From: Sabellastarte sp. h YS-2021
Taxonomy: Eukaryota; Annelida; Polychaeta; Sabellida; Sabellidae
DNA length: 64,000 bases
NCBI GenBank assembly: GCA_964017235.1
Contig: OZ024931.1
Span: forward strand, 122,523,530-122,587,529
Direction of reading: 5' to 3'
Shown here in pieces: positions 191 to 63,284 of this stretch. Within the stretch, counting starts at the first letter, position 1; every line of letters begins with the position of its first letter. The notes below the pieces were generated by a model. The model searched no databases and was not told the DNA's origin. It saw nothing but the letters and a program-made list of their open reading frames with translations. Made by a program: the position numbers and the translations under genes.

Positions 191-2066
191 AAAATAGCAT
201 CAGAGATGCCCGTACCCCACAGCCTTGGGAAATATTTTCAACACCATGAGATATAGAAGTACTGTACCAGTACAAACTTCAGGATACTTTCAGAGCACTG
301 TCAGTTATATAAAGGTCCAAACAATGTTTAAATGGAGAAATAATGTTTAAAAGAAAGATAATGCGTATAAAGATGAAGTATTAAAACAAGATAATTCAAT
401 GACAAGATGACAGCATTAATTAGTAAACTAAAATTCAACACTCTTTATATACATCTGCATTTCCGAATTATGGTTTAGATGGTTTGAATATTACCATGCA
501 TACAGAAGTGGTAATACATTTAATGAATGCTTATGTGTGGTGTTGGAGTAAAATCTGCGGCTCACTTGATGAAATTCTATCTCTTACAATGGGAAGTTAT
601 GAAAGTAAAATTCTTAATAAATTCTAATATGACTTTTGCTTAATCTGCATCAAAAGACAGACCCAAAGGTGCAACAAGATTTTAAAGGTCAAGGTCACTA
701 CGGCAAGGTAAAAGGTGAAATTAAGGTCACACCATGATAATACACACCTATAGCCAATAACCAATGTCCCTACCAAATATCAACTTCCTACACCTTACGG
801 TTTCCGAGATACAGCCCTGACGATTTTATAGGTCAAGGTCACTATGGCAAGGTCAAAGGTGAAAATCAAGGTCACACCATCATGCTGCACACCTACACCC
901 CCTAGCCAATGTCTCTACCAAATATCAACTTCCTGCACCTAACAGTTTCCGAGATAAAGCCCGGACAATATTTTATAGGTCAAGGTCACTACAGCAAGGT
1001 TAAAGGTCAAATCAAGGTCAGACCATGACGTTGCACACCTACACCCCCTAATCAATATCCCTACCAAGTATCAACTTCCTACACCTTACGGTTTCTGAGA
1101 TATAGCCCAGACAACATTTTATAGGTCAAGGTCACTACGGCAAGGTCAAAGGTCAAATCAAGGTCAGACCATGACGCTGCACACCTACACCCCCTAAGCA
1201 ATATCCCTACCAAGTATCAACTTCCCACACCTTACGGTTTCTGAGATATAGCCTGGACAAGATTTTATAGGTCAAGGCCACTACGGCAAGGTCACAGGTC
1301 AAATCAAGGTCACACCATGACGTTGCACACCTACACCCCCTAACCAATATCCGTACCACATATCAACTTCCTACACCTTACGGTTTCTGAGATATAGCCC
1401 GGACAACATTTTATAGGTCAAGGTCATTACGGCAAGGTCAAATCAAGGTCACACCATGACATTGCACACCTACACCCCCTAACCAATGTCCCTACCAAAT
1501 ATCAACTTCCCAAGCCTTACAGTTTCCGAGATATAGCCCGGACAACATTTTATAGGTCAAGGTCACTACGGCAAGGTCAAAGGTCAAATCAAGGTCAGAC
1601 CATGACGTTGCACACCTACACCCCCTAACCAATATCCCTACCAAGTATCAACTTCCTACACCTTACGGTTTCCAAGATATAGCCTGGACAAGATTTTATA
1701 GGTCAAGGTCACTACAGCAAGGTCAAAGGTCAAATCAAGGTCAGACTATGACGTTGGACAACTACACCCCCTAACCAATGTCCCTACCAAGTATCAACTT
1801 CCTACACCTTACAGTTTCCAAGATATAGCCCGGACAATATTTTCAAACTCAAGGTCACTACGGCAAGGTCAAAGGTCAAATCAAGGTCAGACCATGACGT
1901 TGCACAGCTACACCCCCTAACCAATGTCCCTACCAAGTATCAACTTCCTACACCTTACGGTTTCTGAGATACAGCCCGGACAAACTATTTCCCGCCGCCC
2001 ACCCACCCACCCACCCGCAGGGCCCGCCCGCCCGGACGCCCGACCATCCGGCTGTGGGGTAAAAAT
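191..2066 (-). mobile_element. HINE/Helentron-like element, family A copy 1
   Basis: The left end is AAAATAGCATCAGAGATGCC, with hairpin GCATC-AGA-GATGC at 197-209, followed by TACCCCACAGCC at 213-224. The same 12-mer occurs inverted (GGCTGTGGGGTA, 2050-2061) at the right end, after a CCCACC/CCCGCC tract (about 1988-2046). Between them lies the 146 bp tandem core. A subterminal inverted repeat plus a hairpin next to only one end, with no long terminal inverted repeats and no obvious target duplication, is the layout of Helentron-associated non-autonomous elements such as DINE-1. Read that way, its 3' end is at 191 and it points to minus. It encodes no Rep or helicase. Tandem-repeat MITE-like pearl elements are the alternative name for such structures in bivalves. 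Confidence 0.72.
640..1985. repeat. Family A tandem core, about 146 bp unit, about 9 units
   Basis: Head-to-tail units begin around GGTCAAGGTCACTACGGCAA and pass through ACACCTACACCCCCTAACC and TATCAACTTCCTACACCTTA. Corresponding positions are spaced 146 bp (for example 1143, 1289, 1574, 1720, 1866, with one slightly shorter pair). Units differ by scattered substitutions, so the array is not very young. Many units carry AGGTCA direct repeats. Confidence 0.9.
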
Positions 2067-2865
2067 GGAAGGAATTTCCTTACAGTGACTAGTGAATGTC
2101 ACATAGTGTGGTGAAGTTCATATTTCCTACTTTGAACAATATACAAAGTGACAGAGATGGAAGAGATGTCATACCCAGTTATTCAGAAACATGACATCAA
2201 GTAAAATGTTAAGAATTGTGTCTTAGATGTTATTAAAACTGGAACATATGTGGGATTGGACATTACAACAAAATGGTTTGAAGCTACAGATTTGGATCGA
2301 CGCATTAAAAAGAATAAGATTCTGCAAAACATTACTGTTGATGTATCTAATTTAGTACACTAATTGAAACATAAGGAAGTCTATGTTTGAAAATTATACC
2401 TCTTTCAGGTAATCCAAAAGAATATTCATGTTTGGTGAGTAGTAAATTGAAGCTATGTTTGCTTGCAAATTGTAGATTTGTTCAGTGAGAGCAGTATCAT
2501 TTTACATTACACTTCCCAGGGAAAATTCCCACATGCTGTGCACTTTAAGAACTTGTCCAACAGGGAGAAACACGTTTTTATGCCCTCCAGAGCTTTTTCC
2601 ATAGTCTGTAATTACTTAATGTTCTTCCTTATTCTTGTTATGTTTATTAGTTTATGTCTTAGCTGTACCAATATTGTTTTATTTTGCCACTGGCAGGGGG
2701 TATATTTCTATTTTAAACTCACAATAATTTCTTGTTTATTTAACTTAAACAGTTATTTCACAATTTGACACTGGATTTTCTGAGGCTGAAATGAAAAGGA
2801 CAATTTCACCACACTCTATTATTTTGGATGTGTTATACTGACTTATTGAATCAATTATATGCCCT

Positions 2866-3573
2866 TGTTCCACCAAAGGATTAAGCCCCGATCCTGTCGG
2901 CGACCCTTAATCGTGGGTAGTCTTGGAAAAAATGGAAAAAAAATTGACCAATGGGGTGGAAGACAGAATCGGTATGAAGGTCTGGGATTAACTACAGATC
3001 GGCCTCAGGACGCCCCAGGAGGCCCCAGATAGTCCCTAACTGGTCTGGGACTAAGGACAGACTAAGCCATTTTTCTGGTCGGTTTGAACCACGATCCTGT
3101 CGTAGACAAACCGACTGGGTCCCAGGACGCCTCAGGCCTCCTGGGACTAAGCCCCGACTAACCCAGGATTAAGTCCCGACCCCACAAGGTGTCCTGAGGC
3201 GTCCCCAGGCGTCCCCAGACCGAGATAGCCGATTTTTGCTTTGCAATGGGACTAAGGGTCGCAGGAAGCCTGGGACTAAGGTATAGAGGGTCTGGGACTA
3301 AGGGTCGGCGACTAAGGGTCGCAGGCGGCCTGGGACAGCATAGGACTGTGTAAATTTGATCTGAGGAGGCCTGAGGAAGCCTGGGACTGGACATTTTGTT
3401 TATGGCGGGAAAAAATAATCGGTTGGGGTCGGGAGAAATATCAAACATGTTTGATTTCTCACACGGCCTCAACCGACCACAACCGACCCTTACAGGAAGC
3501 CTGGGACTAAGCATATTTTTGAAACCGACCCTCAAAAACCCTTAATCGGGAGCCTTAGTCGTGTGGTGGAACA
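2866..3573. mobile_element. Non-autonomous element with imperfect terminal inverted repeats
   Basis: Ends match as inverted repeats: TGTTCCACCA at 2866 against TGGTGGAACA at 3573, and the similarity continues with gaps into GGATTAAG/CTTAGTC. The interior is packed with short repeats around CCTGGGACTAAG and CGACCC(T/A)TAATC. No transposase is present. The frame on the minus strand here is only the repeat translated. Class not determined; target duplication unclear. Confidence 0.55.
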
Positions 3574-14900: not shown

Positions 14901-15299
14901 ACCTAGTCTATTAACTTATATTATGTAAACAATCACTCTAACATTTGTGAATATATGGGTTTTGTTAAGATTTTCGTTTTGTTTTGTGGGTAGCATTACA
15001 GTGATTGGTCATTTTTTTAATCCAGAGATGGCAACTGATTATTTTAAATTATACTCTATGTTTTATATTTGGAAGCCAAAAAGTCACAACCACTTCTAAC
15101 ACTAGGAGCAAAATTATTCCAAATACTCCAGATCTAAATGATATAACATCAGCAAGTTATCTTGTGTGTCCATATAACTCTCCTTGATTGCTAACAGAAA
15201 AATATTGCCTGAATTAAGAACGGCATCTGAACTAGACCAAGGATGCATCTGTGGCCAGATGCAAGATGTATCCACTGGAAAAGAACAACTAACATAGAT

Positions 15300-16490
15300 T
15301 CAAAGATAAACAGCATTTTTCAATAATAAGCAAGTTGTAGGCACTTTTAAGTTAGGCTACCCTCATTTGACCTTGAAGCAGTGGCCCAAGGTCAAATATA
15401 ACTGTATCAAAAGATTCCTAGCTCATAGTTTTCAATAGGTTTGTTCCTATTGTAAACCTTTAAGACCAAAATAAGCGAGTTATAAGCACTTTTAAGCTTG
15501 GCTATCCTCATTTGACCTTGAAGGAGGGGCCAGAAGATTTGCAGCCCATGATTTCCTATAGGTTGGTTTCACATTGCAAAACCTCTAAGATCAATAATAA
15601 GTGAGTTATAAGCACCTTTACATTTGGCTATCCTTGTTTGGCCTTGAAGGAGGGGGCCAAGGTCAAATCTGACCACATCAGATTATTCATGATTTCCTAC
15701 AGGGTGGTTTGACATTGCAAAACTCTAGGACCAAAAATAAGCAAGTTATAAGTGCATTTAAGTTTGGCTTTCCTCATTAAACCTTGAAGGAGGGGCCCAA
15801 GGACAATCTAATCACAACAGAATATTCGCAGCCCATGATATCCTACAGGTTGGTTTCACATTGCAGTGCTTTTAATTTTGTCAAAAATCTGACCACATCA
15901 GAAGAATCGCAGCCCATGATTTTCCTGTACGTTGGTTTCACAGTGCAAACCTCTAGAACCAATAATAAGTGAGATATAAGCACTTTTCATGACTGAAATG
16001 AAACGCCCAAAGCGGCCATCTTGTTTTTCAAAATGAGGCCAAAAATATTTCCAGTCAAGATTTTGTAATGATACACATATCCTGTGAATTTGAGATATCT
16101 ACCTAAAATACCCTTTGTTCTAGAGGGCCAACAAAACTCCTTGCTGAAAGTAAAAAAAATGCCTGTGGCAGCTATCTTGTTTTTCAAAATGAGGCCAAAA
16201 ATATTTCTAGTCAAGATTTTGTAATGATAAACATATCCTGTGAAATTGACATATCTACCTAAAATACCCTTTGTTCTAGAGGGCCAACAAAACTCCTTGC
16301 TGAAAGTGAAAAAAAATGCCTGTGGCAGCTATCTTGTTTTTCAAAATGAGGTCAAAATATTCCCAGGCAAGATTTTATGGTTATGAATATATCCTGCAAT
16401 TTTGAGAAGTCTACCTATAATACCCTGGCCTCTAGAGGGGTAACGAGAAAATCTCTACACACTGCGGCGGCGGCGGTGGCGGTGGCATAC
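15300..16490 (-). repeat. D repeat mosaic, left block, with trinucleotide tract
   Basis: About five diverged units of roughly 130-225 bp (marked by GAGTTATAAGCACTTTTAAG) are followed by three 156-157 bp units containing GGC(A/G)GC(C/T)AT(C/T)TTGTTTTTC (16015, 16171, 16328). The block ends in a GCG/GTG tract at 16465-16486 and an AAGCG remnant resembling a family B right end. Tandem core then GC-rich tract is again the HINE-type layout, but no left terminus was found. Confidence 0.6.
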
Positions 16491-16572
16491 TCAAGCGTAA
16501 TCCATAGTATCCACCGAATGCTATCCAGTAGATACAATGAACAAGCTCCATTCACCATGACCTTAAGCTCAC

Positions 16573-18576: not shown

Positions 18577-19535
18577 AAAATAGCATCAGAGATGCCCGTA
18601 CCCCATGGTCTGAGGAAATAGTTTTCAACACCATGACATATACAAGTAGTGAAACAGTACAAAGACTGGAATACTTTTAGCGCAATGTCACTTATATAAA
18701 GGTCCAAATAATGTTTAAGTAGAGAAAATATCATCTAAGAGAAAGAAAATGTATGCAAAGATAAAGCAATAGCAAGATGACAGCATTAATCAGTAAACTA
18801 AAACTATGATGCACACTTACAACCTCTAAGCAATGTCCCTACCAACTATCAACTTCCTACAGTTTAAGAAATATTGCCTGGACAAAATTTTAGGTCAAGG
18901 TCACTACGGTAAGGTCAAATGTCAAATTAAGGTCACACCATGACATTGCACAGCTACACCCCCTAGCCAATGTCCCTGCCAAGTATCACCTTCCTACACC
19001 TTACGGTTTCTGAGATACAGCCCGGACAAGATTTTATAGGTCAATGTCACTATGGCAAGGTGAAAGGTGGAATCAAGGTCACACCATGACATTGCACACC
19101 TACACCCCCTAACCAATGTCCCTACCAAGTATCAACTTCCTACACCTTATGGTTTCCAAGATATAGCCCAGAGAAGATTTTATAGTTCAAGGTCACTACG
19201 GCAAGGGCAAAGGTCAAATTAAGGTCAGACCATAATGAGGCACACCTACACCCCCTAACCAGTGTCCCTACCAAGTATCAACTTCCTACACCTTATGGTT
19301 TCCGAGATATAGCCCGGACAAGATTTTCAAACTCAAGGTCACTACGACAAGGTCAAAGGTCAAATCAAGGTCAGACCATGACGTTGCACACCTACACCTC
19401 CTAACCAATATCCCTACCAAGTATCAACTTCCTACACCTTACAGTTTCTGACATACAGCCCGGGCAAACTTTTTCCCACCGCCCGCCCGGTGAAAACAAT
19501 ACCCCGACAGTCCTTAAGGGCTGTGGGGTAAAAAA
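18577..19535 (-). mobile_element. HINE-like element, family A copy 2
   Basis: The left end AAAATAGCATCAGAGATGCC with its hairpin and a diverged TACCCCA motif matches copy A1. About four core units follow, then a CCCACCGCCCGCCC tract and the palindrome ACAGTCCTTAAGGGCTGT (19507-19524) running into GGGGTAAAAA. The D mosaic ends about 60 bp before it. One perfect AGGTCA-A-AGGTCA lies at 19350-19362. Confidence 0.72.
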
Positions 19536-28690: not shown

Positions 28691-29239
28691 AAATTACATT
28701 AGAGTTTAAATTTTTTTTCATCTGGCTTATCTTCAGCTTAAAGAGGGCTTGTAATTGAGCTCATCAGGTCCGATTGCATCATATTGGTTTGATAGTGCAT
28801 ACAGATTTTAAGTTGTCAATTACCAGAGCCAAATTTTAGGAATATTGACCATTCAAGAAGCAGGTCTACCTGATATTCAGATGCTTGCTAATGTTTATGT
28901 CGTGACAGAACTTCCAATTCGACAGAATTTGAAATTCTGTCAACAGAACTTCCAATTGGAAGTTCTGTCGACAGAACTTCCAATTTGAAGTTCTGTCGAC
29001 AGAATTTCAAATTCTGTTGGCAGAATTTGAAATTCTGTCAGCATTTTTGGTCAGAACTTCCAATTGGAAGTTCTGTTGACAGAACTTCAAATCCAATTTC
29101 GTCCCTCAGAGCAATATCCCATTCCTCATCATTTCAGTTCAGTTATTGCTTTTCATTTGTTTTTTTAACTACATATTATTGTTGGAGTTTAACATTCAAA
29201 TTTATTTTGGAAGAATTGTATACAATGACTCAGTAGCTT

Positions 29240-29889
29240 TTATAGGTACTATGTAACAAAGGTTAATCACCTGCTCTGGCTCTCTCTGAAGTACTAAACC
29301 ACAAAGCTTAATTACCTACTCTGGCTCTCTCTGAAGTACTAAACCACAAAGCTTAATTACCTACTCTGGCTCTCTCTGAAGAACTAAACCACAAAGCTTA
29401 ATTACCTACTCTGGCTCTCTCTGAAGAACTAAACCACAAAGCTTAATTACCTACTCTGGCTCTCTCTGAAGAACTAAACCACAAAGCTTAATTACCTACT
29501 CTGGCTCTCTCTGAAGAACTAAACCACAAAGCTTAATTACCTACTCTGGCTCTCTCTGAAGTACTAAACCACAAAGCTTAATTACCTACTCTGGCTCTCT
29601 CTGAAGAACTAAACCACAAAGCTTAATTACCTACTCTGGCTCTCTCTGAAGAACTAAACCACAAAGCTTAATTACCTACTCTGGCTCTCTCTGAAGAACT
29701 AAACCACAAAGCTTAATTACCTACTCTGGCTCTCTCTGAAGTACTAAACCACAAAGCTTAATTACCTACTCTGGCTCTCTCTGAAGAACTAAACCACAAA
29801 GCTTAATTACCTACTCTGGCTCTCTCTGAAGAACTAAACCACAAAGCTTAATTACCTACTCTGGCTCTCTCTGAAGAACTAAACCACAA
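29240..29889. repeat. 45 bp satellite, about 14 units, with 180 bp super-period
   Basis: The unit reads AAGCTTAATTACCTACTCTG, GCTCTCTCTGAAG(A/T)ACT, AAACCACA. All but the first unit are nearly identical. The A/T variant after GAAG runs T T A A A A T A A A T A A A, so groups of four (180 bp) have been copied together. Stops occur in all six frames, so the array is not coding. It abuts the coding remnant directly. Confidence 0.95.
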
Positions 29890-30881: not shown

Positions 30882-31400
30882 TTAAGTAGTACTGATACAT
30901 TATGTGTGATATTTTTGTGATTATTAGTTTACTACTACATTAGTTCTAATACATTATATGTTTTATTGCTGTGCTTAAACAAATTTGAGTTATTTGATGT
31001 ATCTCACTTAGTCTTAATTGTGCACTCAAAATGATCTGAATAAAGATGAAAATGAATGGTGTTATTAATTTTCAATATTACTGGAAGTTCTGTCAACAAG
31101 ATTTGAAATTCTGTCAACAAGATTTGAAATTCTGTTGACAGAATTTGAAATTCTGTCAACAGAACTTCTAATCCATTAGAACCAATGAAATACAGAAATT
31201 GGAAGTTCTGTCAACAGAACTTCCAATTGGAAGTTCTGCCGACAGAATTTCAAATTCTGTCGAATTGGAAGTTCTGTCACGACATTTATAAGAGATACCT
31301 CTACTCATTTAACACAGCAATAGGACACAATATGCTTAAAGTTAAATTAATTTTACACTTTCACTTTGCTGTTGTTCAAACATATTCAACAGCCATTTAT

Positions 31401-34584: not shown

Positions 34585-34879
34585 GACTATTACAGGCAAT
34601 GTTTGGTTCTAATCATGGCTACATTCTACACTTACACAACAATACATGTCCATGATTGTTGACACTGGAACCTCACAAAGTGGGAATCCATTCTATTCCC
34701 TGAAGATTCTACCCACTCTAATTCTACAGACTATTGTGTTGTCATATCAAAGATACCTTGATCATATTATTTTCACATTCCATGATGTATACAAAAACTA
34801 ATTTTACCTGGACAAAACTTTGACAAGATATCATTATAATAATATGTTATCAATGATACCTGGTTTAAATTAGAAAAAT

Positions 34880-37586: not shown

Positions 37587-38563
37587 AAAATAGCATTGGA
37601 GATTCCCGTACCCCACAGCCCAAGGAAATAGCTTACAACACCATGAGATATAAAAGAAGTGATAGTGTGCAAAGATCAGGAGATTTAAAGAGCAAACAGT
37701 GTGACATAATGTTGCACACCTACACCCTACCAAGTATCAACGTCGTATACCTTACAGTTTCCGATATATCGCCTGGACAAGATTTTAAATGTCAAAGTCA
37801 TAATGGCAAGTTCAAAGGTCAAAAAAGGTCACACCATGGTGTTGCACACCAGCTCCCCCTAACAATGTCCTACCAAGTATCAACTTCCTATACCTTACAG
37901 TTTCTGGAATATAGCCCGCACAAAATTTTAAAGTTCAGGGTCACTACGGCAAGGTCTGAGGTGAAATAAAGGTCACACCATGATGTTGCATACCTTCACC
38001 CCTAACCAATGTCCGTTCCAAGTATCAACCTTCTACACCATACAGTTTCAGAAATATAGGCCAGACAAGATTGCAAAGGTCAAGGTCATTATAGCAAGGT
38101 CAAATCAAGGTCACACCATGATGCTGCACACCTAAGAATAAACTTCCTACACCTTGCAGTTTCCGAGATATAGCCTGGACAAGATTTTAAATGTCAAGGT
38201 CACTACAGCAACATCAAAGGTCAAATCAACTTCACACTATGGCATCACACACCTGCATCCCTAACCAATGTTTCTACAAAGTATGAACTTCCTATGTCTT
38301 GCAATTTCTGAGATATAGCCCAGACAAGATTTTCAAAATCAAACTATGGTACGGTTAAATCAAGGTCACACCATAACGCTGCACACCTATAACCCCTAAC
38401 CAATGTTCCTACCATTTATTTAACATCTTACACTTCAGGATTTCTGAGATACAGCCTGACAAGCTTTTTCCCACCACCTACCCGCCCGCCCAACCACCCG
38501 CCCATCCATATACCATGGGTGAGAACAATACCCGCACAGCCCTTAAAGGCTGTGAGGTAAAAA
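37587..38563 (-). mobile_element. HINE-like element, family A copy 3
   Basis: Left end AAAATAGCATTGGAGATTCC, then CGTACCCCACAGCCC. About six decayed core units follow, with a CCCACCACCTACCCGCCCGC tract and right palindrome ACAGCCCTTAAAGGCTGT (38536-38553) running into GAGGTAAAAA. Divergence suggests an older insertion than A1. Confidence 0.72.
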
Positions 38564-43938: not shown

Positions 43939-44821
43939 TAGGATTCTCCCATTGACATGAGTTTCAGAAATGCACTGGGTTAGTTATCTCCGATACACAG
44001 AAACACAAACCGTTTTCCTTGGCATCTAGAACTAATACTCTAATATCATGTGACAACAGAAACAATTTCTCAGTTTTTTAGACTTTTTATAATATTTCTG
44101 CACTTTCTTGCTGTTCAGTACATATCTTGATTTCAGGATAAATCATTTGATCACCCACTATAAACTGTATCCAACATATAATGGACACACCCTTCACACG
44201 GCAATGAAATGTAACAGCCTACAGTGAATCATACATTTAAATATCTAGTGTCTACAGATATCTTACTGTATAAAAGCAAGTCTAATAAGGTTGTATTTAT
44301 CAGAGAATATTTCACTGCTCTGAATACTTTAAATCCCAGTCCTATTTCACAGCTGTGACATGTATCAACACGGCTTTTATTTCCTTCCAATGCAGCTTCA
44401 AATGCTCCAGTTCTTGTTAATTTATAGCTGCAGATACTACTAAGAAAAGAACACCCAGTAGATTGCTACTAAAACTTAATTTCCCCTTCCACAAATTGTA
44501 AAATTATACAATAGTATTCACTGTAAAAATTAACACTTCTCAGCTGTCAATAAGTACCATTGTGTGTCCTATAATTCATTGCAATTACTTCATTTATAGA
44601 GCAGCTACATCAATACTATAACTAGAAATAGGCCGCCCTGTTGATAGTAGATGCGAATAGAAACAGGATAGCATAGAAGAACACACATTATCATGTGTAA
44701 TGTCCACCCATGAACCTTTTGCCCAAATTGTACAGTAGTCTTACAAGACCCTGTTTCATTTGTAAAATATATCAATGATGCTTAAATATTTGATAGTGTA
44801 GATGTAATTTATTTCAGCTTC

Positions 44822-47800
44822 ATGCCTTTTTGCATTGGTTGGGTTGAAAATTTTGACGAAATCACTCTATCTTGCACGGTTAAGAAGATAGAAGCCAATT
44901 CCTGTTTTTCTATTTTTGGCAAAAATTTGAAAATTCAAAATGGCCGCCATTATTGGGAAAAGGAAATTTTTTTGAAAATTGCCAAGAGTACATTTCTTAG
45001 ATACCCTATGGGTCGAAAATTTCAACAAAATAACTCTATTTTGCACGGTTAAGGCCAGTTTGTGTTTTTCCATTTTGGGCAAAAATTCGAAAATTCAAAA
45101 TGGCTGCCATTTTTGGGGAGGGGAAAATTTTTTGAAAATTGCAAAGATTACATTCCTTAGATACCCTGTGGGTTGAAAATTTCGACGAAATCGCTCTATC
45201 TCGCATGGTTAAGGAGATAGAAGCAAATTTGTGTTTTGCCATTTTTGGCAAAAATTTGAAAATTCAAAATGGCCGCCATTTTAGGGGAGGGGAAAATTTT
45301 TTAGAAATTACCAAGAGTACAATGCTCAGATACCCTGTGGGTCGAAAATTTTGACGAAATCACTCTATCTGGCACGGTTAAGGAGATAGAAGCAAATTTG
45401 TGTTTTGCCATTTTTGGCAAAAATTCGAAAATTCAAAATGGCCGCCATTTTTGGGGAGGGGAAAATTTTTGGAAAATTGCAAAGATTGCATTCCTTAGAT
45501 ACCCTGTGGGTCGAAAATTTCGACGAAATCGCTCTATCTCGCACGGTTAAGGAGATAGAAGCAAATTTGTGTTTTGCAATTTTTGGCAAAAATTCGAAAA
45601 TTCAAAATGGCCGCCATTTTTGGGGAGGGGAAAATTTTTTGAAAATTGCAAAGATTACATTCCTTAGATACCCTGTGGGTCGAAAATTTCGACGAAATCG
45701 CTCTATCTCGCACGGTTAAGGAGATAGAAGCAAATTTGTGTTTTGCCATTTTTGGCAAAAATTCGAAAATTCAAAATGGCCGCCATTTTTGGGGAGGGGA
45801 AAATATTTTGAAAATTGCAAAGATTGCATTGCTTAGATACCCTGTGCGTCGAAAATTTTGCCGAAATCGCTCTATCTCGCACGGTTAAGGAGATAGAAGC
45901 AAATTAGTGTTTTGCCATTTTTGGCAAAAATTCGAAAATTCAAAATGGCCGCCATTTTTGGGGAGGGGAAAATTTTTGGAAAATTGCAAAGATTGCATTC
46001 CTTAGATCCCCTGTGGGTCGAAAATTTTGCCGAAATCGCTCTATCTCGCACGGTTAAGGAGATAGAAGCAAATTTGTGTTTTGCCATTTTTGGCAAAAAT
46101 TCGAAAATTCAAAATGGCCGCCATTTTTGGGGAGGGGAAATTTTTTTGAAAATTGCAAATATTACATACCTTAGATACCCTGTGGGTCGAAAATTTCGAC
46201 GAAATCGCTCTATCTCGCACGGTTAAGGAGATAGAAGCAAATTTGTGTTTTGCCATTTTTGGCAAAAATTCGAAAATTCAAAATGGCCGCCATTTTTGGG
46301 GAGGGGAAAATTTTTGGAAAATTGCAAAGATTGCATTCCTTAGATACCCTGTGGGTCGAAAATTTCGACGAAATCGCTCTATCTCGCACGGTTAAGGAGA
46401 TAGAAGCAAATTTGTGTTTTGCCATTTTTGGCAAAAATTCGAAAATTCAAAATGGCCGCCATTTTTGGGGAGGGGAAAATTTTTTGAAAATTGCAAATAT
46501 TACATTCCTTAGATACCCTGTGGGTCGAAAATTTCGACGAAATCGCTCTATCTCGCACGGTTAAGGAGATAGAAGCAAATTTGTGTTTTGCCATTTTTGG
46601 CAAAAATTCGAAAATTCAAAATGGCCGCCATTTTTGGGGAGGGGAAAATTTTTTGAAAATTGCAAAGATTGCATTCCTTAGATACCCTGTGGGTCGAAAA
46701 TTTCGACGAAATCGCTCTATCTCGCACGGTTAAGGAGATAGAAGCAAATTTGTGTTTTGCCATTTTTGGCAAAAATTCGAAAATTCAAAATGGCCGCCAT
46801 TTTTGGGGAGGGGAAAATATTTTGAAAATTGCAAAGATTGCATTGCTTAGATACCCTGTGCGTCTAAAATTTTGCCGAAATCGCTCTATCTCGCACGGTT
46901 AAGGAGATAGAAGCAAATTAGTGTTTTGCCATTTTTGGCAAAAATTCGAAAATTCAAAATGGCCGCCATTTTTGGGGAGGGGAAAATTTTTGGAAAATTG
47001 CAAAGATTGCATTCCTTAGATCCCCTGTGGGTCGAAAATTTTGCCGAAATCGCTCTATCTCGCACGGTTAAGGAGATAGAAGCAAATTTGTGTTTTGCCA
47101 TTTTTGGCAAAAATTCGAAAATTCAAAATGGCCGCCATTTTTGGGGAGGGGAAATTTTTTTGAAAATTGCAAATATTACATTCCTTAGATACCCTGTGGG
47201 TCGAAAATTTCGACGAAATCGCTCTATCTCGCACGGTTAAGGAGATAGAAGCAAATTTGTGTTTTGCCATTTTTGGCAAAAATTCGAAAATTCAAAATGG
47301 CCGCCATTTTTGGGGAGGGGAAAATTTTTGGAAAATTGCAAAGATTGCATTCCTTAGATACCCTGTGGGTCGAAAATTTCGACGAAATCGCTCTATCTCG
47401 CACGGTTAAGGAGATAGAAGCAAATTTGTGTTTTGCCATTTTTGGCAAAAATTCGAAAATTCAAAATGGCCGCCATTTTTGGGGAGGGGAAAATTTTTTG
47501 AAAATTGCAAATATTACATTCCTTAGATACCCTGTGGGTCGAAAATTTCGACGAAATCGCTCTATCTCGCACGGTTAAGGAGATAGAAGCAAATTTGTGT
47601 TTTGCCATTTTTGGCAAAAATTCGAAAATTCAAAATGGCCGCCATTTTTGGGGAGGGGAAATTTTTTTGAAAATTGCAAATATTACATTCCTTAGATACC
47701 CTGTGGGTCGAAAATTTCGATGAAATCGTTCTATCTCGCACGGTTAAGGAGATAGAAGCAAATTTGTGTTTTGCCATTTTTGGCAAAAATTCGAAAATTC

Positions 47801-50640
47801 AAAATGGCCGCCATTTTTGGGGAGGGGAAAATTTTTGGAAAATTGCAAAGATTGCATTCCTTAGATACCCTGTGGGTCGAAAATTTCGACGAAATCGCTC
47901 TATCTCGCACGGTTAAGGAGATAGAAGCAAATTTGTGTTTTGCCATTTTTGGCAAAAATTCGAAAATTCAAAATGGCCGCCATTTTTGGGGAGGGGAAAA
48001 TTTTTGGAAAATTGCAAAGATTGCATTCCTTAGATACCCTGTGGGTCGAAAATTTCGACGAAATCGCTCTATCTCGCACGGTTAAGGAGATAGAAGCAAA
48101 TTTGTGTTTTGCCATTTTTGGCAAAAATTCGAAAATTCAAAATGGCCGCCATTTTTGGGGAGGGGAAAATATTTTGAAAATTGCAAAGATTGCATTGCTT
48201 AGATACCCTGTGCGTCTAAAATTTTGCCGAAATCGCTCTATCTCGCACGGTTAAGGAGATAGAAGCAAATTAGTGTTTTGCCATTTTTGGCAAAAATTCG
48301 AAAATTCAAAATGGCCGCCATTTTTGGGGAGGGGAAAATTTTTGGAAAAGTGCAAAGATTGCATTCCTTAGATCCCCTGTGGGTCGAAAATTTTGCCGAA
48401 ATCGCTCTATCTCGCACGGTTAAGGAGATAGAAGCAAATTTGTGTTTTGCCATTTTTGGCAAAAATTCGAAAATTCAAAATGGCCGCCATTTTTGGGGAG
48501 GGGAAATTTTTTTGAAAATTGCAAATATTACATTCCTTAGATACCCTGTGGGTCGAAAATTTCGACGAAATCGCTCTATCTCGCACGGTTAAGGAGATAG
48601 AAGCAAATTTGTGTTTTGCCATTTTTGGCAAAAATTCGAAAATTCAAAATGGCCGCCATTTTTGGGGAGGGGAAAATTTTTGGAAAATTGCAAAGATTGC
48701 ATTCCTTAGATACCCTGTGGGTCGAAAATTTCGACGAAATCGCTCTATCTCGCACGGTTAAGGAGATAGAAGCAAATTTGTGTTTTGCCATTTTTGGCAA
48801 AAATTCGAAAATTCAAAATGGCCGCCATTTTTGGGGAGGGGAAAATTTTTGGAAAATTGCAAATATTACATTCCTTAGATACCCTGTGGGTCGAAAATTT
48901 CGACGAAATCGCTCTATCTCGCACGGTTAAGGAGATAGAAGCAAATTTGTGTTTTGCCATTTTTGGCAAAAATTCGAAAATTCAAAATGGCCGCCATTTT
49001 TGGGGAGGGGAAATTTTTTTGAAAATTGCAAATATTACATTCCTTAGATACCCTGTGGGTCGAAAATTTCGATGAAATCGTTCTATCTCGCACGGTTAAG
49101 GAGATAGAAGCAAATTTGTGTTTTGCCATTTTTGGCAAAAATTCGAAAATTCAAAATGGCCGCCATTTTTGGGGAGGGGAAAATTTTTGGAAAATTGCAA
49201 AGATTGCATTCCTTAGATACCCTGTGGGTCGAAAATTTCGACGAAATCGCTCTATCTCGCACGGTTAAGGAGATAGAAGCAAATTTGTGTTTTGCCATTT
49301 TTGGCAAAAATTCGAAAATTCAAAATGGCCGCCATTTTTGGGGAGGGGAAAATTTTTTGAAAATTGCAAAGATTGCATTCCTTAGATACCCTGTGGGTCG
49401 AAAATTTCGACGAAATCGCTCTATCTCGCACGGTTAAGGAGATAGAAGCAAATTTGTGTTTTGCCATTTTTGGCAAAAATTCGAAAATTCAAAATGGCCG
49501 CCATTTTTGGGGAGGGGAAAATATTTTGAAAATTGCAAAGATTGCATTGCTTAGATACCCTGTGCGTCTAAAATTTTGCCGAAATCGCTCTATCTCGCAC
49601 GGTTAAGGAGATAGAAGCAAATTAGTGTTTTGCCATTTTTGGCAAAAATTCGAAAATTCAAAATGGCCGCCATTTTTGGGGAGGGGAAAATTTTTGGAAA
49701 ATTGCAAAGATTGCATTCCTTAGATCCCCTGTGGGTCGAAAATTTTGCCGAAATCGCTCTATCTCGCACGGTTAAGGAGATAGAAGCAAATTTGTGTTTT
49801 GCCATTTTTGGCAAAAATTCGAAAATTCAAAATGGCCGCCATTTTTGGGGAGGGGAAATTTTTTTGAAAATTGCAAATATTACATTCCTTAGATACCCTG
49901 TGGGTCGAAAATTTCGACGAAATCGCTCTATCTCGCACGGTTAAGGAGATAGAAGCAAATTTGTGTTTTGCCATTTTTGGCAAAAATTCGAAAATTCAAA
50001 ATGGCCGCCATTTTTGGGGAGGGGAAAATTTTTGGAAAATTGCAAAGATTGCATTCCTTAGATACCCTGTGGGTCGAAAATTTCGACGAAATCGCTCTAT
50101 CTCGCACGGTTAAGGAGATAGAAGCAAATTTGTGTTTTGCCATTTTTGGCAAAAATTCGAAAATTCAAAATGGCCGCCATTTTTGGGGAGGGGAAATTTT
50201 TTTGAAAATTGCAAATATTACATTCCTTAGATACCCTGTGGGTCGAAAATTTCGACGAAATCGCTCTATCTCGCACGGTTAAGGAGATAGAAGCAAATTT
50301 GTGTTTTGCCATTTTTGGCAAAAATTCGAAAATTCAAAATGGCCGCCATTTTTGGGGAGGGGAAAATTTTTGGAAAATTGCAAATATTACATTCCTTAGA
50401 TACCCTGTGGGTCGAAAATTTCGACGAAATCGCTCTATCTCGCACGGTTAAGGAGATAGAAGCAAATTTGTGTTTTGCCATTTTTGGCAAAAATTCGAAA
50501 ATTCAAAATGGCCGCCATTTTTGGGGAGGGGAAAATTTTTCGAAAATTGCAAAGAGTACACTCCTCCGATACCCTGCGGGTCGAAAATTTTGCCGAAATC
50601 GCTCTATCTCGCACGGTTAAGGAGATAGAAGCAAATTACT
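44822..50640. repeat. 169 bp satellite array, about 34 monomers
   Basis: Monomers contain GATACCCTGTGGGTCGAAAA, CTCTATCTCGCACGGTTAAG, GAGATAGAAGCAAATTTGTG, a TTGCCATTTTTGGCAA dyad and AAAATGGCCGCCATTTTTGG. Early monomers (to about 45.4 kb) and the last one are diverged; the middle is highly homogeneous. Marker variants recur every 1014 or 1352 bp. Because 169 is not a multiple of three, frames run through all phases and open in both strands; these are not genes. Confidence 0.96.
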
Positions 50641-50976
50641 CAAAAGTAGTACTGAAAATACACAATGAAGTACCTAAATGGCTATTACTCATGTACTGAC
50701 AAAGCTATCAGTCCCAAATGCAATACCAAGCGAGCTATGGACATAACAATCTTGTATTCAAAATTGTAGTAAAATATCTTTAATTATTTTGGCTTAAATG
50801 CACGGAAACCAATGGGTACTGAAAATAGCTGTACTTAAGTATTACTCAGTAAGCAAAAGAGGTACAACAGCCAAAAGCAATCCCAAGCAAGCTACTGACC
50901 CAATAAGCCTGCATACCAAATTTGGTGACAATAGCTCTAATACTTTTCCTTTAAATGAGCGGAAACCATGCGTGAC

Positions 50977-51079
50977 GCCGGACATCGGACGCCGGACGCC
51001 GGACATCGGACATCGGACATCGGACATCGGACGGCGAAAAAAGCAAAAATAATATATCCACCCCCCAGGGGGGTGGACA
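50977..51079. repeat. GGACATC microsatellite and terminal palindrome of element C
   Basis: About seven copies of GGACATC or GGACGCC (50977-51031), a short AT-rich spacer, then TCCACCCCCC-A-GGGGGGTGGA (51057-51077), a perfect 10 bp stem with a one-base centre. Confidence 0.9.
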
Positions 51080-51833
51080 TAATAATAAGTGCTGATCGCT
51101 CTTGTTGAGTCAAATCTTTCAAGCTTATTAACACCCCAAATGAGCACAGTTAGCAACTGCATATTACAAAATGTGCTGCATAAAGTTCCATATTTTCTAC
51201 CATGCATTGTCTTTTTTCCTCACAAATCTTTGATTACCTTTCAACTAATCTTTACTATCCAATCAGCTGTTACAAAAACCATGTTAAAAATTGCTTTTTT
51301 AATCCCAAAATGAGGAATATCATTTACAAATTCTTTTTTTTATAACGCTGCATCACACAAGTTGGTTATATTTTAGGTTTTTCTGGAAATAAGTTACTTC
51401 TCCAGCATTACAGATATATATTTATTTTTAAAAGAAGAAAATGCTGAAATTGCACAATTAATCAAAACATCCTTGATTTCCAGAATCAGTGCAGGCTTTT
51501 GATGACTCTGCAGTGAAACTAGTTGAACTAATGACATGGTGTAAGGGAGACTGCTCCCGTCTCTACTGTCAGTGCTGATTTATTACCTTCACTAATTGTC
51601 ACATCTCTCAATGTGATGACAGCAACAACAAGTCTACCCTATTTCAAGGTCACTGGTTTACTTAGTTCCTTGTCCAAACTAGCAACACACAAAAACACAT
51701 CAAAACAGGGAACTTGACCTCTCATCAATTTCCAATTTTTGCTGGCAGACCAGGCATTACATCTCTGCATCTGTAACAGGTTTTTTTCCTCTCTCCTGGT
51801 TTGCCTGTGCTGGTATGTTTGCTGGTTGACTCT

Positions 51834-52904: not shown

Positions 52905-54096
52905 GTGCATACCTACAACCCCCAACCAATGTCCCTACAAAATATCAACTTTCTACACCTTATGGTTTCCGAGATATAGCCTGGACAAGATTTTATAGGT
53001 CAAGGTCACTATGGCAAGGTCAGAGGTCAAATCAAGGTCACACATGACATTGCACACCTACAACCCCCAACCAATGTCCCTAGCAAGTATCAACTTCCTA
53101 CACCTTACGGTTTCTGAGATATAGCCTGGACAAGATTTTATAGGTCAAGGTCACTACAGCAAGGTCAAAGGTAAAATCAAGGTCACACCATGACATTGCA
53201 CACCTACACCCCCTAACCAATGTCCCTACCAAGTATCAACTTCCTACACCTTATGGTTTCTGAGATATAGCCTGGACAAGATTTTATAGGTCAAGGTCAC
53301 TACAGCAAGGTCAAAGGTAAAATCAAGGTCACACCATGACATTGCACACCTACACCCCCTAACCAATGTCCCTACCAAGTATCAACTTCCTACACTTTAC
53401 GGTTTCCGAGATATAGTCCAGACAACATTTTATAGGTAAAGGTCACTACAGAAAGGTCAAAGGTCAAATCAAGGTTACACCATGACGTTGCATACCTACA
53501 ACCCCCAACCAATGTCCCTACAAAATATCAACTTTCTACACCTTACGGTTTCCGAGATATAGCCTGGACAAGATTTTATAAGTCAAGGTCACTACGGCAA
53601 GGTCAGAGGTCAAATCAAGGTCACACAATGACATGGCACACCTACACCATGACGTTGCATACCTACAACCCCCAACCAATGTCCCTACCAAGTATCAACT
53701 TCCTACACCTTACGGTTCTCAAGATATAGTCCGGACAAAATATTAAAGATCAAGGTCACTACGGCAAGGTTAAAGGTCAAATCAAGGTCACACTATAACA
53801 TTGCACACTTACAACCCCTAACTAATGTCCCTGCCAAGTATCAACTTCCTACACTGAAGATTTTTACACTCAAGGTCACTGTGGCAAGGTCAAAGGTCAA
53901 ATCAAGGTCACACCATGACGTTGCACACCTACAATCCCTAACCAATGTCCTTACCATTTATGAATGTCCTACAGCTTAAGGTTTCTGAGATACGGCCCGG
54001 ACAAACTTTTTCCCGCCGACCACCCGTCCACCCGCCTATCCGAACACCATGGGTGAAAACAATACCCTGACAGCCCTTAAGGGCTGTGGGTAAAAA
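52905..54096 (-). mobile_element. HINE-like element, family A copy 5, hairpin end missing
   Basis: About seven to eight core units of 146 bp, a CCCGCCGACCACCCGTCCAC tract, then a perfect palindrome ACAGCCCTTAAGGGCTGT (54070-54087) and GGGTAAAAA. The low-coordinate end starts within a core unit next to GCCCCAGGGGGC (52871-52882), so the left end with the hairpin is lost. DR1-like motifs at 53454-53466 and 53887-53899. Confidence 0.78.
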
Positions 54097-56770: not shown

Positions 56771-57199
56771 TCTAAAGGATCCATCAAAAGAGATTTGGAT
56801 GCTGAAATTATACTAGATTAGTACACAGTACCTTGGTGCTTTCTCTGACCTAATGGTTGGGGTGATGCCGCGACCTTTATGTTGTTGTATACATGGATAT
56901 ATACTGAAGTATTACTGGTTCATCTTTTAGAAACTGGGATCCTATTCACAGTAATAGCTGTTCTGACAGAATCCTATCACACCAGACATAAACTGGGAAC
57001 GACTTTACCTTAACATAGTACCTACATAAATTGTCATTTTGCCATAAACAAGTAAAACTAGAGGATCGCTCGCAAAAAAAAAAGATAATGTTTTTGCATA
57101 GCAAAAACAAAGCGTCCCGAAAAGGATATAAAGGTGAGTGCTAAAGTATTAAGAAAATGCTTCGTTTCTAGCCTTATACTGTTGTGGCAACCAAAGTCA

Positions 57200-57470
57200 G
57201 CGCAGTCTGCTCTATCTAGCACGGTTTTCACGATATAAGCATTTTTGTGTTTTGCAAAAAATAAAAAAATTAAAAATGTCCGCTATATTTGGCGAGACAA
57301 AAATATTTTGAAAATTGGCATGGCTACTCTGCACAGATACCCAGCAGGTCCAAAATTTTGTTGAGTTCGCTCCATATAGCACAGTTTTCGAGATATAAGC
57401 ATTTTTGTGTTTTGCAAAAACTTTGAAAATTTAAAATGGCCACCATTTTTGGGGAGACAAAAATTTTTGT
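57200..57470. repeat. 169 bp satellite subfamily, left part
   Basis: Under two monomers, marked by TAGCACGGTTTTC and GATATAAGCATTTTTGTGTT. Homologous to the core of element C (same order GATACCC, CTCTAT, AGCACGGTT, AAAATGGCC) but diverged. Confidence 0.85.
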
Positions 57471-57539
57471 CAAGACCACTGCCGTGGTGTGTATCTCCCG
57501 CCGAGCATTAAAGGAGAAGAAATAGCTTTTCCGAGATAT

Positions 57540-60500
57540 TCATAATTTTTCATTTTCGTGTGTGAAAGGTCTTCCAAAAGTAGGTGAATGAGTTATTTGA
57601 GAAAAATTGGCTATCTGCAATACTATTAAGAGATAATTCACATTTACTCATTTTGAGTAGGTGAGTAATTATCTATGGGTCTGAAACTTCACCAAGTGAA
57701 AGCTCTCCTAAAAGTAGGTGAATGAGTTATTTGAGAAAAATTGGCTATCTGCAATACTTTTAGAGATAATTCGCATTTACTCATTTTGAGTAGGTGAGTA
57801 ATTAGCTATGGGTCTGAAACTTCACCATGTGAAAGCTCTCCCACAAGTAGATGAATGAGTATTTGATAAAAATTGGGTATCCGCAATACTTTTACAGATA
57901 ATTAGCATTTACTCATTTTGAGTAGGTGAATAAATAGCTATGGGTCTGAAACTTCACAGAGTGAAAGTTCTCCCAAAAGTAGGTGAATGAGTTATTTGAG
58001 AAAAATTGGCTATCTGCAATACTTTTAGAGATAATTCACATTTACTCATTTTGAGTAGGTGAATAATTAGCTATGGGTCTGAAACTTCACCAAGTGAAAG
58101 CTCTGCCAAAAGTAGGTGAATGAGTTATTTGAGAAAAATTGGCTATCTGCAATACTTTTAGAGATAATTCGCATTTACTTATTTTGAGTAGGCGAGTAAT
58201 TAGCTATGGGTCTGAAACTTCACCAAGTGAAAGCTCTCCCAAAAGTAGGTGAATGAGTTATTTGAGAAAAATTGGCTATCTGCAATACTTTTAGAGATAA
58301 TTCGCATTTACTCATTTTGAGTAGGTGAGTAATTAGCTATGGGTCTGAAACTTCACGAAGTGAAAGCTCTCCCAAAAGTAGGTGAATGAGTTATTTGAGA
58401 AAAATTGGCTATCTGCAATACTTTTAGAGATAATTCGCATTTACTCATTTTGAGTAGGTGAGTAATTAGCTATGGGTCTGAAACTTCACAGAGTGAAAGC
58501 TCTCCCAAAAGTAGGTGATGGAGTTATTTGAGAAAAATTGGCTATCTGCAATACTTTTAGAGATAATTCGCATTTACTCATTTTGAGTAGTTGAGTAATT
58601 AGCTATGGGTCTGAAACTTCACCAAGTGAAAGCTCTCCCAAAAGTAGGTGAATGATTAATTTGACAAAAATTGGCTATCTGCAATACTTTATGAGATAAT
58701 TCGCATTTACTCATTTTGAGTAGGTGAGTAATTAGCTATGGGTCTGAAACTTCACCAAGTGAAAGCTCTCCCAAAAGTAGGTGAATGAGTTATTTGAGAA
58801 AAATTGGCTATCTGCAATACTTTTAGAGATAATTCGCATTTACTCATTTTGAGTAGGTGAGTAATTAGCTATGGGTCTGAAACTTCACCAAGTGAAAGCT
58901 CTCCCAAAAGTAGGTGAATGATTAATTTGAGAAAAATTGGCTATCTGCAATACTTTTAGAGATAATTCGCATTTACTCATTTTGAGTAGGTGAGTAATTA
59001 GCTATGGGTCTGAAACTTCACGAAGTGAAAGCTCTCCCAAAAGTAGGTGAATGAGTTATTTGAGAAAAATTGGCTATCTGCAATACTTTTACAGATAATT
59101 CGCATTTACTCATTTTGAGTAGGTGAGTAATTAGCTATGGGTCTGAAACTTCACCAAGTGAAAGCTCTCCCAAAAGTAGGTGAATGATTAATTTGACAAA
59201 AATTGGCTATCTGCAATACTTTATGAGATAATTCGCATTTACTCATTTTGAGTAGGTGAGTAATTAGCTATGGGTCTGAAACTTCACCAAGTGAAAGCTC
59301 TCCCAAAAGTAGGTGAATGAGTTATTTGAGAAAAATTGGCTATCTGCAATACTTTTAGAGATAATTCACATTTACTCATTTTGAGTAGGTGAATAATTAG
59401 CTATGGGTCTGAAACTTCACCAAGTGAAAGCTCTGCCAAAAGTAGGTGAATGAGTTATTTGAGAAAAATTGGCTATCTGCAATACTTTTAGAGATAATTC
59501 GCATTTACTCATTTTGAGTAGGTGAGTAATTAGCTATGGGTCTGAAACTTCACCAAGTGAAAGCTCTCCCAAAAGTAGGTGAATGAGTTATTTGAGAAAA
59601 ATTGGCTATCTGCAATACTTTTAGAGATAATTCGCATTTACTCATTTTGAGTAGGTGAGTAATTAGCTATGGGTCTGAAACTTCACCAAGTGAAAGCTCT
59701 CCCAAAAGTAGGTGAATGATTAATTTGACAAAAATTGGCTATCTGCAATACTTTATGAAATAATTCGCATTTACTCATTTTGAGTAGGTGAGTAATTAGC
59801 TATGGGTCTGAAACTTCACCAAGTGAAAGCTCTCCCAAAAGTAGGTGAATGAGTTATTTGAGAAAAATTGGCTATCTGCAATACTTTTAGAGATAATTCA
59901 CATTTACTCATTTTGAGTAGGTGAATAATTAGCTATGGGTCTGAAACTTCACCAAGTGAAAGCTCTCCCAAAAGTAGGTGAATGAGTTATTTGAGAAAAA
60001 TTGGCTATCTGCAATACTTTTAGAGATAATTCGCATTTACTCATTTTGAGTAGGTGAGTAATTAGCTATGGGTCTGAAACTTCACCAAGTGAAAGCTCTC
60101 CCAAAAGTAGGTGAATGAGTTATTTGAGAAAAATTGGCTATCTGCAATACTTTTACAGATAATTCGCATTTACTCATTTTGAGTAGGTGAGTAATTAGCT
60201 ATGGGTCTGAAACTTCACCAAGTGAAAGCTCTCCCAAAAGTAGGTGAATGAGTTATTTGAGAAAAATTGGCTATCTGCAATACTTTTAGAGATAATTCGC
60301 ATTTACTCATTTTGAGTAGGTGAGTAATTAGCTATGGGTCTGAAACTTCGCGAAGTGAAAGCTCTCCCAAAAGTAGGTGAATGAGTTATTTGAGAAAAAT
60401 TGGCTATCTGCAATACTTTTAGAGATAATTCGCATTTACTCATTTTGAGTAGGGGAGTAATTAGCTATGGGTCTGAAACTTCACAGAGTGAAAGCTCTCC

Positions 60501-61431
60501 CAAAAGTAGGTGATGGAGTTATTTGAGAAAAATTGGCTATCTGCACTACTTTTAGAGATAATTCGCATTTACTCATTTTGAGTAGGTGAGTAATTAGCTA
60601 TGGGTCTGAAACTTCACCAAGTGAAAGCTCTCCCAAAAGTAGGTGAATGATTAATTTGACAAAAATTGGCTATCTGCAATACTTTATGAGATAATTCGCA
60701 TTTACTCATTTTGAGTAGGTGAGTAATTAGCTATGGGTCTGAAACTTCACCAAGTGAAAGCTCTCCCAAAAGTAGGTGAATGAGTTATTTGAGAAAAATT
60801 GGCTATCTGCAATACTTTTAGAGATAATTCGCATTTACTCATTTTGAGTAGGTGAATAATTATCTATGGGTCTGAAACTTCACCAAGTGAAAGCTCTCCC
60901 AAAAGTAGGTGAATGAGTTATTTGAGAAAAATTGGCTATCTGCAATACTTTTAGAGATAATTCGCATTTACTCATTTTGAGTAGGTGAGTAATTAGCTAT
61001 GGGTCTGAAACTTCACCATGTGAAAGCTCTCCCACAAGTAGATGAATGAGTTATTTGATAAAAATTGGGTATCCGCAATACTTTTACAGATAATTAGCAT
61101 TTACTCATTTTGAGTAGGTAAATAATTAGCTATGGGTCTGAAACTTCACCAAGTGAAAGCTCTCCCAAAAGTAGGTGAATGAGTTATTTGAGAAAAATTG
61201 GCTATCTGCAATACTTTTAGAAATAATTCACATTTACTCATTTTGAGTAGGTGAATAATTGGCTATGGGTCTGAAACTTCACCATGTGAAAGCTCTTCCA
61301 AAAGTAGGTGAATGAGTTATTTGAGAAAAATTGGCCATCTGCAATACTTTTAGAGGTAATTCGCATTTACTCTTTTTGAGTAGGTGAGCAATTAGCTATG
61401 GGTCTGAAACTTCACCAAGTGAAAGCTCTTT
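57540..61431. repeat. 133 bp satellite array, about 29 monomers
   Basis: Monomers read GTGAAAGCTCTCCCAAAAGT, AGGTGAATGAGTTATTTGAG, AAAAATTGGCTATCTGCAAT, ACTTTTAGAGATAATTCGCA, TTTACTCATTTTGAGTAGGT, GAGTAATTAGCTATGGGTCT, GAAACTTCACCAA. Period 133 (58081, 58214, 58347). TTACTCA...TGAGTAA forms a dyad. Variant markers recur at multiples of 133 (see findings). No coding potential. Confidence 0.96.
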
Positions 61432-62715
61432 GGGATAGCTGCTCTGCAGAGATACCCTGAAGATAAAAAATTTCGTCGAAATCGCTCTATGTAGCACGGT
61501 TTTCGAAATATAAGCATTTTTGTGTTTTGCAATTTTTGCGCAAAAATTCGAAAATTCAAACTGGCCGCCATTTTTGGCAAGATAAAATTTTTTTGAAAAT
61601 TGGTATGGCTACTCTGCAGAGATACCCTGTGGGTCAAAAATTTCGTTGAAATCGCTCTATCTAGCACGGTTTTCGAGATATAAGCATTTTTGTGTTTTGC
61701 AATTTTGCGAAAAATTTGAAAATTCAAAATGGCCGCCATTTTTGGCGAGACAAAAATTTTTTCAAAATTGGGATAACTACTCTGCAGAGATACCCTGAGG
61801 GTCAAAAATTTCGTCGAAATCACTCTATCTAGCAGGGTTTTTGAGATATAAGCATTTTTATGTTTTGCAATTTTTGCGAAAAATTCGAAAATTCAAAATG
61901 GCCGCCATTTTTGGCGAGACAAAATTTTTTTGAAAATTGGCATGGCTACTCTGCAGATATACCCTGTGGGTCAAAAATTTCGACGAAATCGCTCGATCTA
62001 GCAGGGTTTTCGAGATATAAGCATTTTTATGTTTTGCAATTTTTGCGAAAAATTCGAAAATTCAAAATGGCCGCCATTTTTTGCGAGAAATTTCTTGTTT
62101 GAAAATTGGCATGGCTACTCTGCAGATATACCCTGTGGGTCAAAAATTTCGTCGAAATCGCTCTATCTAGCAGGGTTTTCGAGATATAAGCATTTTTGTG
62201 TTTTGCAATTTTTGCGAAAAATTCGAAAATTCAAAATGGCCGCCATTTTTGGCGAGACAAAAATTTTTTCAAAATTGGGATAACTACTCTGCAGAGATAC
62301 CCTGAGAGTCAAAAATTTTGTCGAAATTGCTCTATCTAGCACAGTTTTTGAGATATAAGCATTTTTGTGTTTTGCAATTTTTGCGAAAATTTTGAAAATT
62401 CAAAATGGCCACCATTTTTGGCGAGACAAAAATTTTTTTGAAAATTGGGAAAAGTACTCCCCAGAGATATCCTGTGGGTCAAAAATTTTGTCGAAATTGC
62501 TCTATCTAGCACGGTTTTTGAGATATAAGCATTTTTGTGTTTTACAATTTTTGCGAAAATTTCGAAAATTCAAAATGGCCGCCATTTTGGGCGAGACAAA
62601 AATTTTTTGAAAATTGGGAAAACTACTCCGCAGAGATACCCTGTGGGTCAAAAATTTTGTCGAAATCGCTCTATCTAGCACGGTTTTCGAGATATAAGCA
62701 TTTTTGTGTTTTCCT
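61432..62715. repeat. 169 bp satellite subfamily, right part, about 7-8 monomers
   Basis: Units of 169-172 bp with CTACTCTGCAGAGATACCCT, TCAAAAATTTCGTCGAAATC, TCTAGCACGGTTTTCGAGAT, ATAAGCATTTTTGTGTTTTG and AAAATGGCCGCCATTTTTGG. Open frames on both strands are repeat shadows. Confidence 0.92.
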
Positions 62716-63284
62716 TATTTGGAAAATTCGTAATGATTAATTAATCATTAATTACTCGGCCATTTCTTGACCAATCAATGCCAAAATCTAATGATTTCCA
62801 GATTTTAATAGAATGAATGTATTTGCCAAGTTTCAGGTGAATTGGTAAAATTCCTTTCAAGTTATCATCCGGACAAGCTTCCCCATCGAAAAAAGACATT
62901 TTTGGTCATGTGACCTCTCTGATTGGTTGAAATGTCACTGCAGCATATTCAAAAAAATTCCCCAGGGCTACTGCCTAAACCTGCCAAATTTGAAAAGAAT
63001 CCGCCTAACGGTTACAGAGTTATAAGGAAAACAAAATGCGGAGCCGGCGGAGCCGCCGGAGCCGGCGGAGCCGGCGGAGCCAGAAGCTCTCCCATACACA
63101 AACAAGCGTCCCTTGCGGGACGCTTAATTATACCCTCCTTCTCACTTATATCAGAACCAACTCTTTAGGAGAATACAGTATATTTAATAGATTTATTGAA
63201 GTCAGTTTAGCAGTTATAAACAAATAAATGGCTTTTAAACAGAATGTTCCACAAAGAGATAATCAAAGTCTGTTTTGAAATTAT

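Follow-up and report, generated by a model that had tools for sequence, protein, structure and literature searches.

Three repeat families of the annelid Sabellastarte sp. h YS-2021, here called A, B and C, have their closest described counterparts among Helitron-like elements of the Helentron/Helitron2 group. They lie in a 64,000-nt stretch (C5:122523530-122587529, hereafter the window) of a genome searched over 1.786 Gb; comparisons with published systems refer to portions of the reports cited. In the oyster Crassostrea gigas, Cg_HINE elements consist of a 5' subterminal inverted repeat (subTIR) with its inverted partner, a microsatellite and a tandem core of 138-181 bp, and the 3' part continues with a subTIR and then a palindrome; TT targets are preferred and no duplication is made (PMC7492417). 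Some Cg_HINE elements contain two arrays, each core cluster is tied to one flank pair, and an autonomous partner was not identified in the oyster (PMC7492417); a later review reports the same arrays across different oyster elements (PMC12628747). Families A, B and C share this design, including the subTIRs, the microsatellite, the tandem core and the TT target. Unlike Cg_HINE, B and C have CTAG ends and occupy TWA^TT sites (PMC7492417), and related cores occur with different end pairs (169 bp in B1 and C; 147 bp in B2 and C, the latter at one locus). CTAG is not mentioned in the portion consulted of the oyster satellitome paper (PMC8268682), the sole oyster paper checked, and no novelty is claimed for the CTAG end.

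The DINE-1/HINE elements of Drosophila and mites resemble these families in their subTIRs, in a palindrome near the 3' end, in a TT target, and in tandem repeats and a microsatellite, both of which are optional there; they have known autonomous partners (PMC4067079), whereas here none was found near 24 Rep matches. The proto-Helentron of Phytophthora infestans begins with 5' TT, ends with 3' CTAG and inserts between A and T without duplication (PMC4067079), ends and a target that B and C display and A does not. The Helitron2-type elements FoHeli1/2 of Fusarium have a target, TNAT^T according to a figure legend (TNAT and A in the running text), close to that of B and C, and an end, ATTTT, that is found in A; the Helitron2 target given in that legend, TTTT^T or C, is close to the T-runs of A (PMC5148889). 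Proto-Helentron and FoHeli1/2 are coding elements of about 5-14 kb, whereas the present families are non-autonomous and carry satellite cores, which the portions consulted of the two papers do not mention (PMC4067079, PMC5148889). The canonical Helitron (5' TC, 3' CTRR, no subTIRs) is not matched: B and C begin with TT and have both CTAG and subTIRs. The design is thus one already described in oysters and fruit flies, with ends and insertion sites precisely mapped here.

Families A, B and C, together with a fourth, D, are very probably non-autonomous members of the Helentron/Helitron2 group. This assignment draws on their observed anatomy, the number of end sites, the ends themselves, the target, the lack of duplication beyond TT and the empty sites. 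Elements are read on the strand customary for HINE diagrams, and every copy in Table 1 then runs along the window's minus strand. In this direction, an element comprises the 5' terminus with a subTIR folded into a palindrome, a GC-rich microsatellite, the tandem core, a unique stretch, the 3' subTIR, a hairpin and the 3' terminus. Family A has Helentron-like ends in T-runs; B and C run 5'-TT...CTAG-3' and insert at TWA^TT without duplication, and D is placed with the CTAG type by its 3' end. All of them may be mobilized in trans, through rolling-circle replication, by Rep-helicases that autonomous Helentron-like elements of this genome encode, with the 3' hairpin as putative terminator, and the tandem cores would be carried along and re-used between end families.

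A preliminary description of the window, made by eye, is accurate and useful for what is an already described kind of element, with corrections. The hairpin and motif at the low-coordinate end, the inverted motif at the far end, the tandem cores and the GC-rich tracts, the latter seen directly in the window sequence, are all present as reported (Table 1). The Helentron/HINE layout proposed there holds for the anatomy, read on the opposite strand, but B and C, with CTAG ends in A^T sites, do not have plain Helentron ends. Nor does the hairpin form the terminus: CTAG starts 10-11 nt beyond it in B2 and B3, 30-33 nt beyond it in B1 and 61 nt beyond it in the window copy of C.

Genome-wide counts, based on exact matches with lone ends included and with the reversed pattern as control, give 33,027 sites for the A motif (78 reversed), 9,604 for the B hairpin plus motif and 9,001 for that of C (0 reversed for each). 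The B palindrome occurs at 7,842 places and the C palindrome with its terminus at 2,825, again against 0 for both reversed patterns. Since these counts exceed the controls by orders of magnitude, there is little doubt that the motifs are the ends of repeated elements. In a survey of 30 B loci and 30 C loci, AACTAG opens all 30 B left ends, and a CTAG-AAAT-like sequence stands at the expected distance in 27 of the 30 C left ends, preceded by AA in 25 of the 27; the remaining three lack it. The 3' end on the element strand is therefore ...CTAG-3', followed by host TT. The left end of A is AAAATAGCATC, so that its element-strand 3' end is ...GATGCTATTTT, and its right ends run GGGGTAA. The subTIRs measure 12 nt in A, 9 nt in B, below a published 11-nt family criterion (PMC4067079), and about 12 nt in C; the 5' subTIR is paired with an inverted partner except in the window copy A1. 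A single hairpin lies near the 3' end, beyond the 3' subTIR, as in HINEs. As single-stranded DNA, the 5' palindromes of the three families form much more favourable folds than shuffled sequences do (z -5.3 to -6.5), and the 3' ends of A and B1 also fold better (z -3.6 and -4.6). Further D 5' ends occur at L013 and L063, and L013 also shows, at 1439-1469, a B1 copy that has inserted immediately against the 5' terminus of a D element.

Target sites were read from 36 copies with both ends (13 A, 17 B, 6 C). TT is present at both junctions in 17/17 B copies; the parser demanded this, and no chosen B pair was lost thereby. The 5' TT is preceded by TWA in 14/17 B and 6/6 C copies (20/23 together), against 702 of the 14,834 TTs of the window, and by A in 16/17 B and 6/6 C copies. 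In A, TTT precedes the junction in 11/13 copies. The preliminary description proposed a test for insertion between two Ts without duplication: the ends are sharp and no duplication extends beyond TT, but A inserts in T-runs and the B and C sites are best described as A^TT.

Empty sites were found for all three families. Among B copies, the joined flanks of L027/L097 match 133-bp monomers of B that have no interruption, at 96.6% in the best of 200 alignments spanning the junction in the retrieved loci. Those of L031/L099 show 100% identity to intact B copies along 122 nt, and for L038/L107 the match is L048, with 96.7% identity across 122 nt. At L043 (C1:1687107-1690123), a C copy interrupts a reverse-transcriptase gene: with the flanks translated piecewise between stop codons before the domain search, one matches RVT_1 (E 6.5e-16), and the other gives a 100-residue piece with no domain match over the cut-off. 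Of the 40 scored matches to this site (139 candidates), 20 span the query from position 1 or 2 to 222 at 80-97% and are uninterrupted paralogues, and two are L043's own flanks. For the A copy L119/120, 40 matches out of 1,048 candidates were scored: 38 run across the joint at 77-83%, and the other two are its own flanks. Where the B and C sites are exact, a single host TT becomes two. With clearly defined boundaries and end sites numbering in the tens of thousands, these HINE-like families add to the case for the spread of satellite-like repeats by such elements, an idea already published (PMC7492417, PMC12628747), and supply exact ends and a target for a CTAG-ended class.

The search for an autonomous partner gave 24 places with a Helitron_like_N (Rep) match, all Helentron-type. 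The L075/L093 locus holds one open frame with DUF6570, Rep, a PIF1 helicase and an endonuclease-type match, and L078 carries an OTU match; Helentron domains include Rep, helicase, endonuclease and OTU (PMC4067079, PMC5148889). The only exact A, B or C termini around the Rep matches read away from Rep, and they do not make Rep part of the element. An A copy in L085 lies ~650 nt from a Rep remnant but reads away from it, as does a B-type end (AACTAG, hairpin, GAAGCGGCCC) ~1.3 kb past Rep in L070 (C1:175361048-175364617) and L076 (C2:115879416-115882976), two Rep-bearing loci that are 99% identical. Two-mismatch C-like words in L072 (two), L073, L081 and L082 were attributed to chance; the hairpins seen at L073, L078, L081 and L089 fit none of the families.

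Several results weigh against placing these families in the Helentron/Helitron2 group. Rep-domain matches number only 24 in the whole genome, and no A, B or C termini enclose Rep within about 1.5 kb on each side of them, the Rep elements' own ends lying beyond this span. The endonuclease match of L075/L093 scores 24.2 bits, just below the Pfam cut-off of 24.5. Although their hairpins are exact, the 3' end of B2 folds only weakly better than shuffles (z -1.9; 8/200 as good) and that of C no better (z -0.8; 45/200 as good), and the 61-nt distance of the window C hairpin from the end falls outside the 8-35 nt given for mite HINEs (PMC4067079). Among the joined flanks, those of B copy L016/L104 have one spanning match, at only 72%, and in the alignment of five sequences across the L119/120 joint the A-run is exact in one and shorter by 1-2 A in four.

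Tandem arrays (period of at least 60) are present inside the element, no more than 1.5 kb from its end, in 29/30 B and 30/30 C loci; the array at B locus L030 belongs to a nested B2 copy. Six of eight partly overlapping A loci have an array somewhere. Core matches were found in 58/60 B and C loci, and every match listed has one orientation. Family B, treated as one in the preliminary description, splits into three subfamilies: B1 (22 loci) has 169-bp units followed by a 133-bp array in 21, the window copy adding a second 169-bp array; B2 (7 loci) has a 147-bp core in five and no core match in two; and B3 (1 locus) has a 158-bp core. All 30 C loci contain core types of 169 and/or 151 bp; in addition, the C-ended locus L059 carries a 147-bp array, 93-95% identical to the B2 unit, and L047 has an A-type unit further in. 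The D core is related to the 147-bp unit, with 83-86% identity. Judged by terminus and core sequence, B and C are related, because they have the CTAG terminus (outermost AACTAG) and 169-bp cores of 86% identity in common. The view of three unrelated families in the window is thereby revised, and D adds a fourth. A general motif across all cores did not emerge: between A and the 169-bp monomer the match is limited to 17 nt, with a score of 30 against 29 for the best shuffle, and most other pairs fall within the shuffle range.

As the preliminary description suggested, rolling-circle replication may itself make the tandem cores, a possibility compatible with membership in the Helentron/Helitron2 group that concerns core origin only, and one that we regard as a tentative option somewhat short of an even chance. 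It would fit the near-constant position of the arrays (59/60 B and C end loci, one being the nested copy's array), the two kinds of array in B1 and the monomer switch in L059, which is abrupt, falls inside a monomer and has no intervening B end, in a single case and in a copy without a C terminus. Likewise, ~100 nt lying ~0.7 kb beyond the Rep-helicase open frame of L075/L093, on its downstream side, match the 158-bp unit of B3 with a score of 121, whereas 60 shuffles reach at most 40. However, slippage or unequal exchange after insertion yields the same arrays; capture of a pre-existing satellite is equally possible, and the match beyond the open frame may come from a HINE inserted there. Satellite generation by replication is accordingly put forward as a hypothesis. 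A more far-reaching scheme seems to us rather unlikely: two end classes (Helentron-type A; CTAG-type B, C and D) would coexist at high copy number in one genome, the CTAG families would share a pool of cores, at least one of which (158 bp) would descend from non-coding sequence at the tail of a Helentron Rep-helicase element, and replication with template switching in arrays would make and trade satellites. Should end families exchange cores while they replicate, this genome would be well suited to measuring the origin and movement of satellites.

Cut-and-paste transposons of terminal-inverted-repeat type, including miniature inverted-repeat transposable elements (MITEs), with a 2-bp TT target duplication, are a very improbable alternative. 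The TT at both B ends is, by sequence, the same for a 2-bp duplication as for A^T or T^T insertion, and its doubling fits T-T insertion just as well as A-T insertion of 5'-TT...CTAG-3' with no duplication. However, terminal inverted repeats, long ones included, are not seen: the inverted motifs are subterminal, at unequal distances, and the ends are asymmetric, with a palindrome at one and CTAG and hairpin at the other. A fixed target duplication longer than TT is likewise lacking, as words common to both flanks show nothing past TT above shuffled flank pairing in the 36 both-end copies, within these small numbers, and no long duplications: four-base words are common to 6/13 A flank pairs (shuffled mean 5.9), matches due to A's T-runs, and a five-base word to 1 of 17 B pairs (0.7 shuffled). 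DINE-1, which has the same layout, was itself reportedly first classed as a MITE. Least probable of all, and nearly negligible, are classical satellites spread by recombination with conserved flanks hitch-hiking, an idea that suits long homogeneous arrays such as that of the window C copy (34 copies, 95% matches) but is disfavoured because of the empty sites, besides the exact ends, the fixed target and the unlike cores between the same kind of ends.

Table 1. Elements of families A to D in the window, with the positions of their parts.
Element	Position	Strand	Parts
A copy 1 (A1)	191..2062	-	3' end AAAATAGCATC; hairpin 197-209; subTIR 213-224; 146-bp array 674-1983; C-rich tract; 5' subTIR (inverted motif) 2050-2061
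D	15232..16535	-	CTAG terminus; hairpin 15245-15262; subTIR GTATCCACTGGA 15268-15279; cores 15321-15987 and 16012-16439; GCGGCGG tract; 5' palindrome 16507-16535
A copy 2	18577..19531	-	hairpin 18583-18595; left subTIR inexact, low-coordinate end placed from hairpin position; array 18810-19467; right motif 19519-19530
B3	34867..36344	-	decayed terminus AAATTAG; hairpin and AAGCGTCCC at 34899; 158-bp array 35286-36344; right end not located in window
A copy 3	37587..38560	-	right motif decayed, 38548-38560
C	44622..51082	-	CTAG terminus; hairpin 44683-44698; subTIR at 44701; 169-bp array 44840-50637 (34.4 copies); GC tract 50974-51033; inverted motif at 51071; 5' palindrome and TT ending 51082
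A copy 4	52906..54093	-	array and 5' end; right motif 54082-54093; low-coordinate end not located
B1	57058..63127	-	CTAG terminus; hairpin 57089-57109; subTIR 57110-57118; 133-bp array 57562-61429 (29.1 copies); 169-bp array 61430-62712 (7.6 copies); GCGGAGCCG tract 63038-63081; 5' palindrome 63104-63125; inverted motif at 63117

The preliminary description placed the inverted motif inside a palindrome in most cases, which is exact in B; A1 has no right-end palindrome and the C palindrome contains one mismatch. Among the three families in the window, B alone thus has an exact strict triad (hairpin, motif and palindrome of the motif). At 9 nt, the strict triad has 31 hits in the window, nearly all in arrays or in a foldback-like repeat (28.9-31.3 kb); among 15 first-order Markov surrogates of the window, it occurs in 1/15 at 9 nt and 3/15 at 8 nt. 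In this foldback-like element (28903-31256), inverted arrays of 21/28-bp units (AAGTTCTGTCGACAGAACTT type) enclose a 45-bp minisatellite of 14 copies and two open frames, neither of which has a Pfam match over the cut-off. Elsewhere in the genome, C ends recur at a spacing of ~4,673 bases on C1 (17090928, 17095602, 17100275 and 17104948; region 17090928-17104964), which suggests that a segment containing a C element has been duplicated in tandem.

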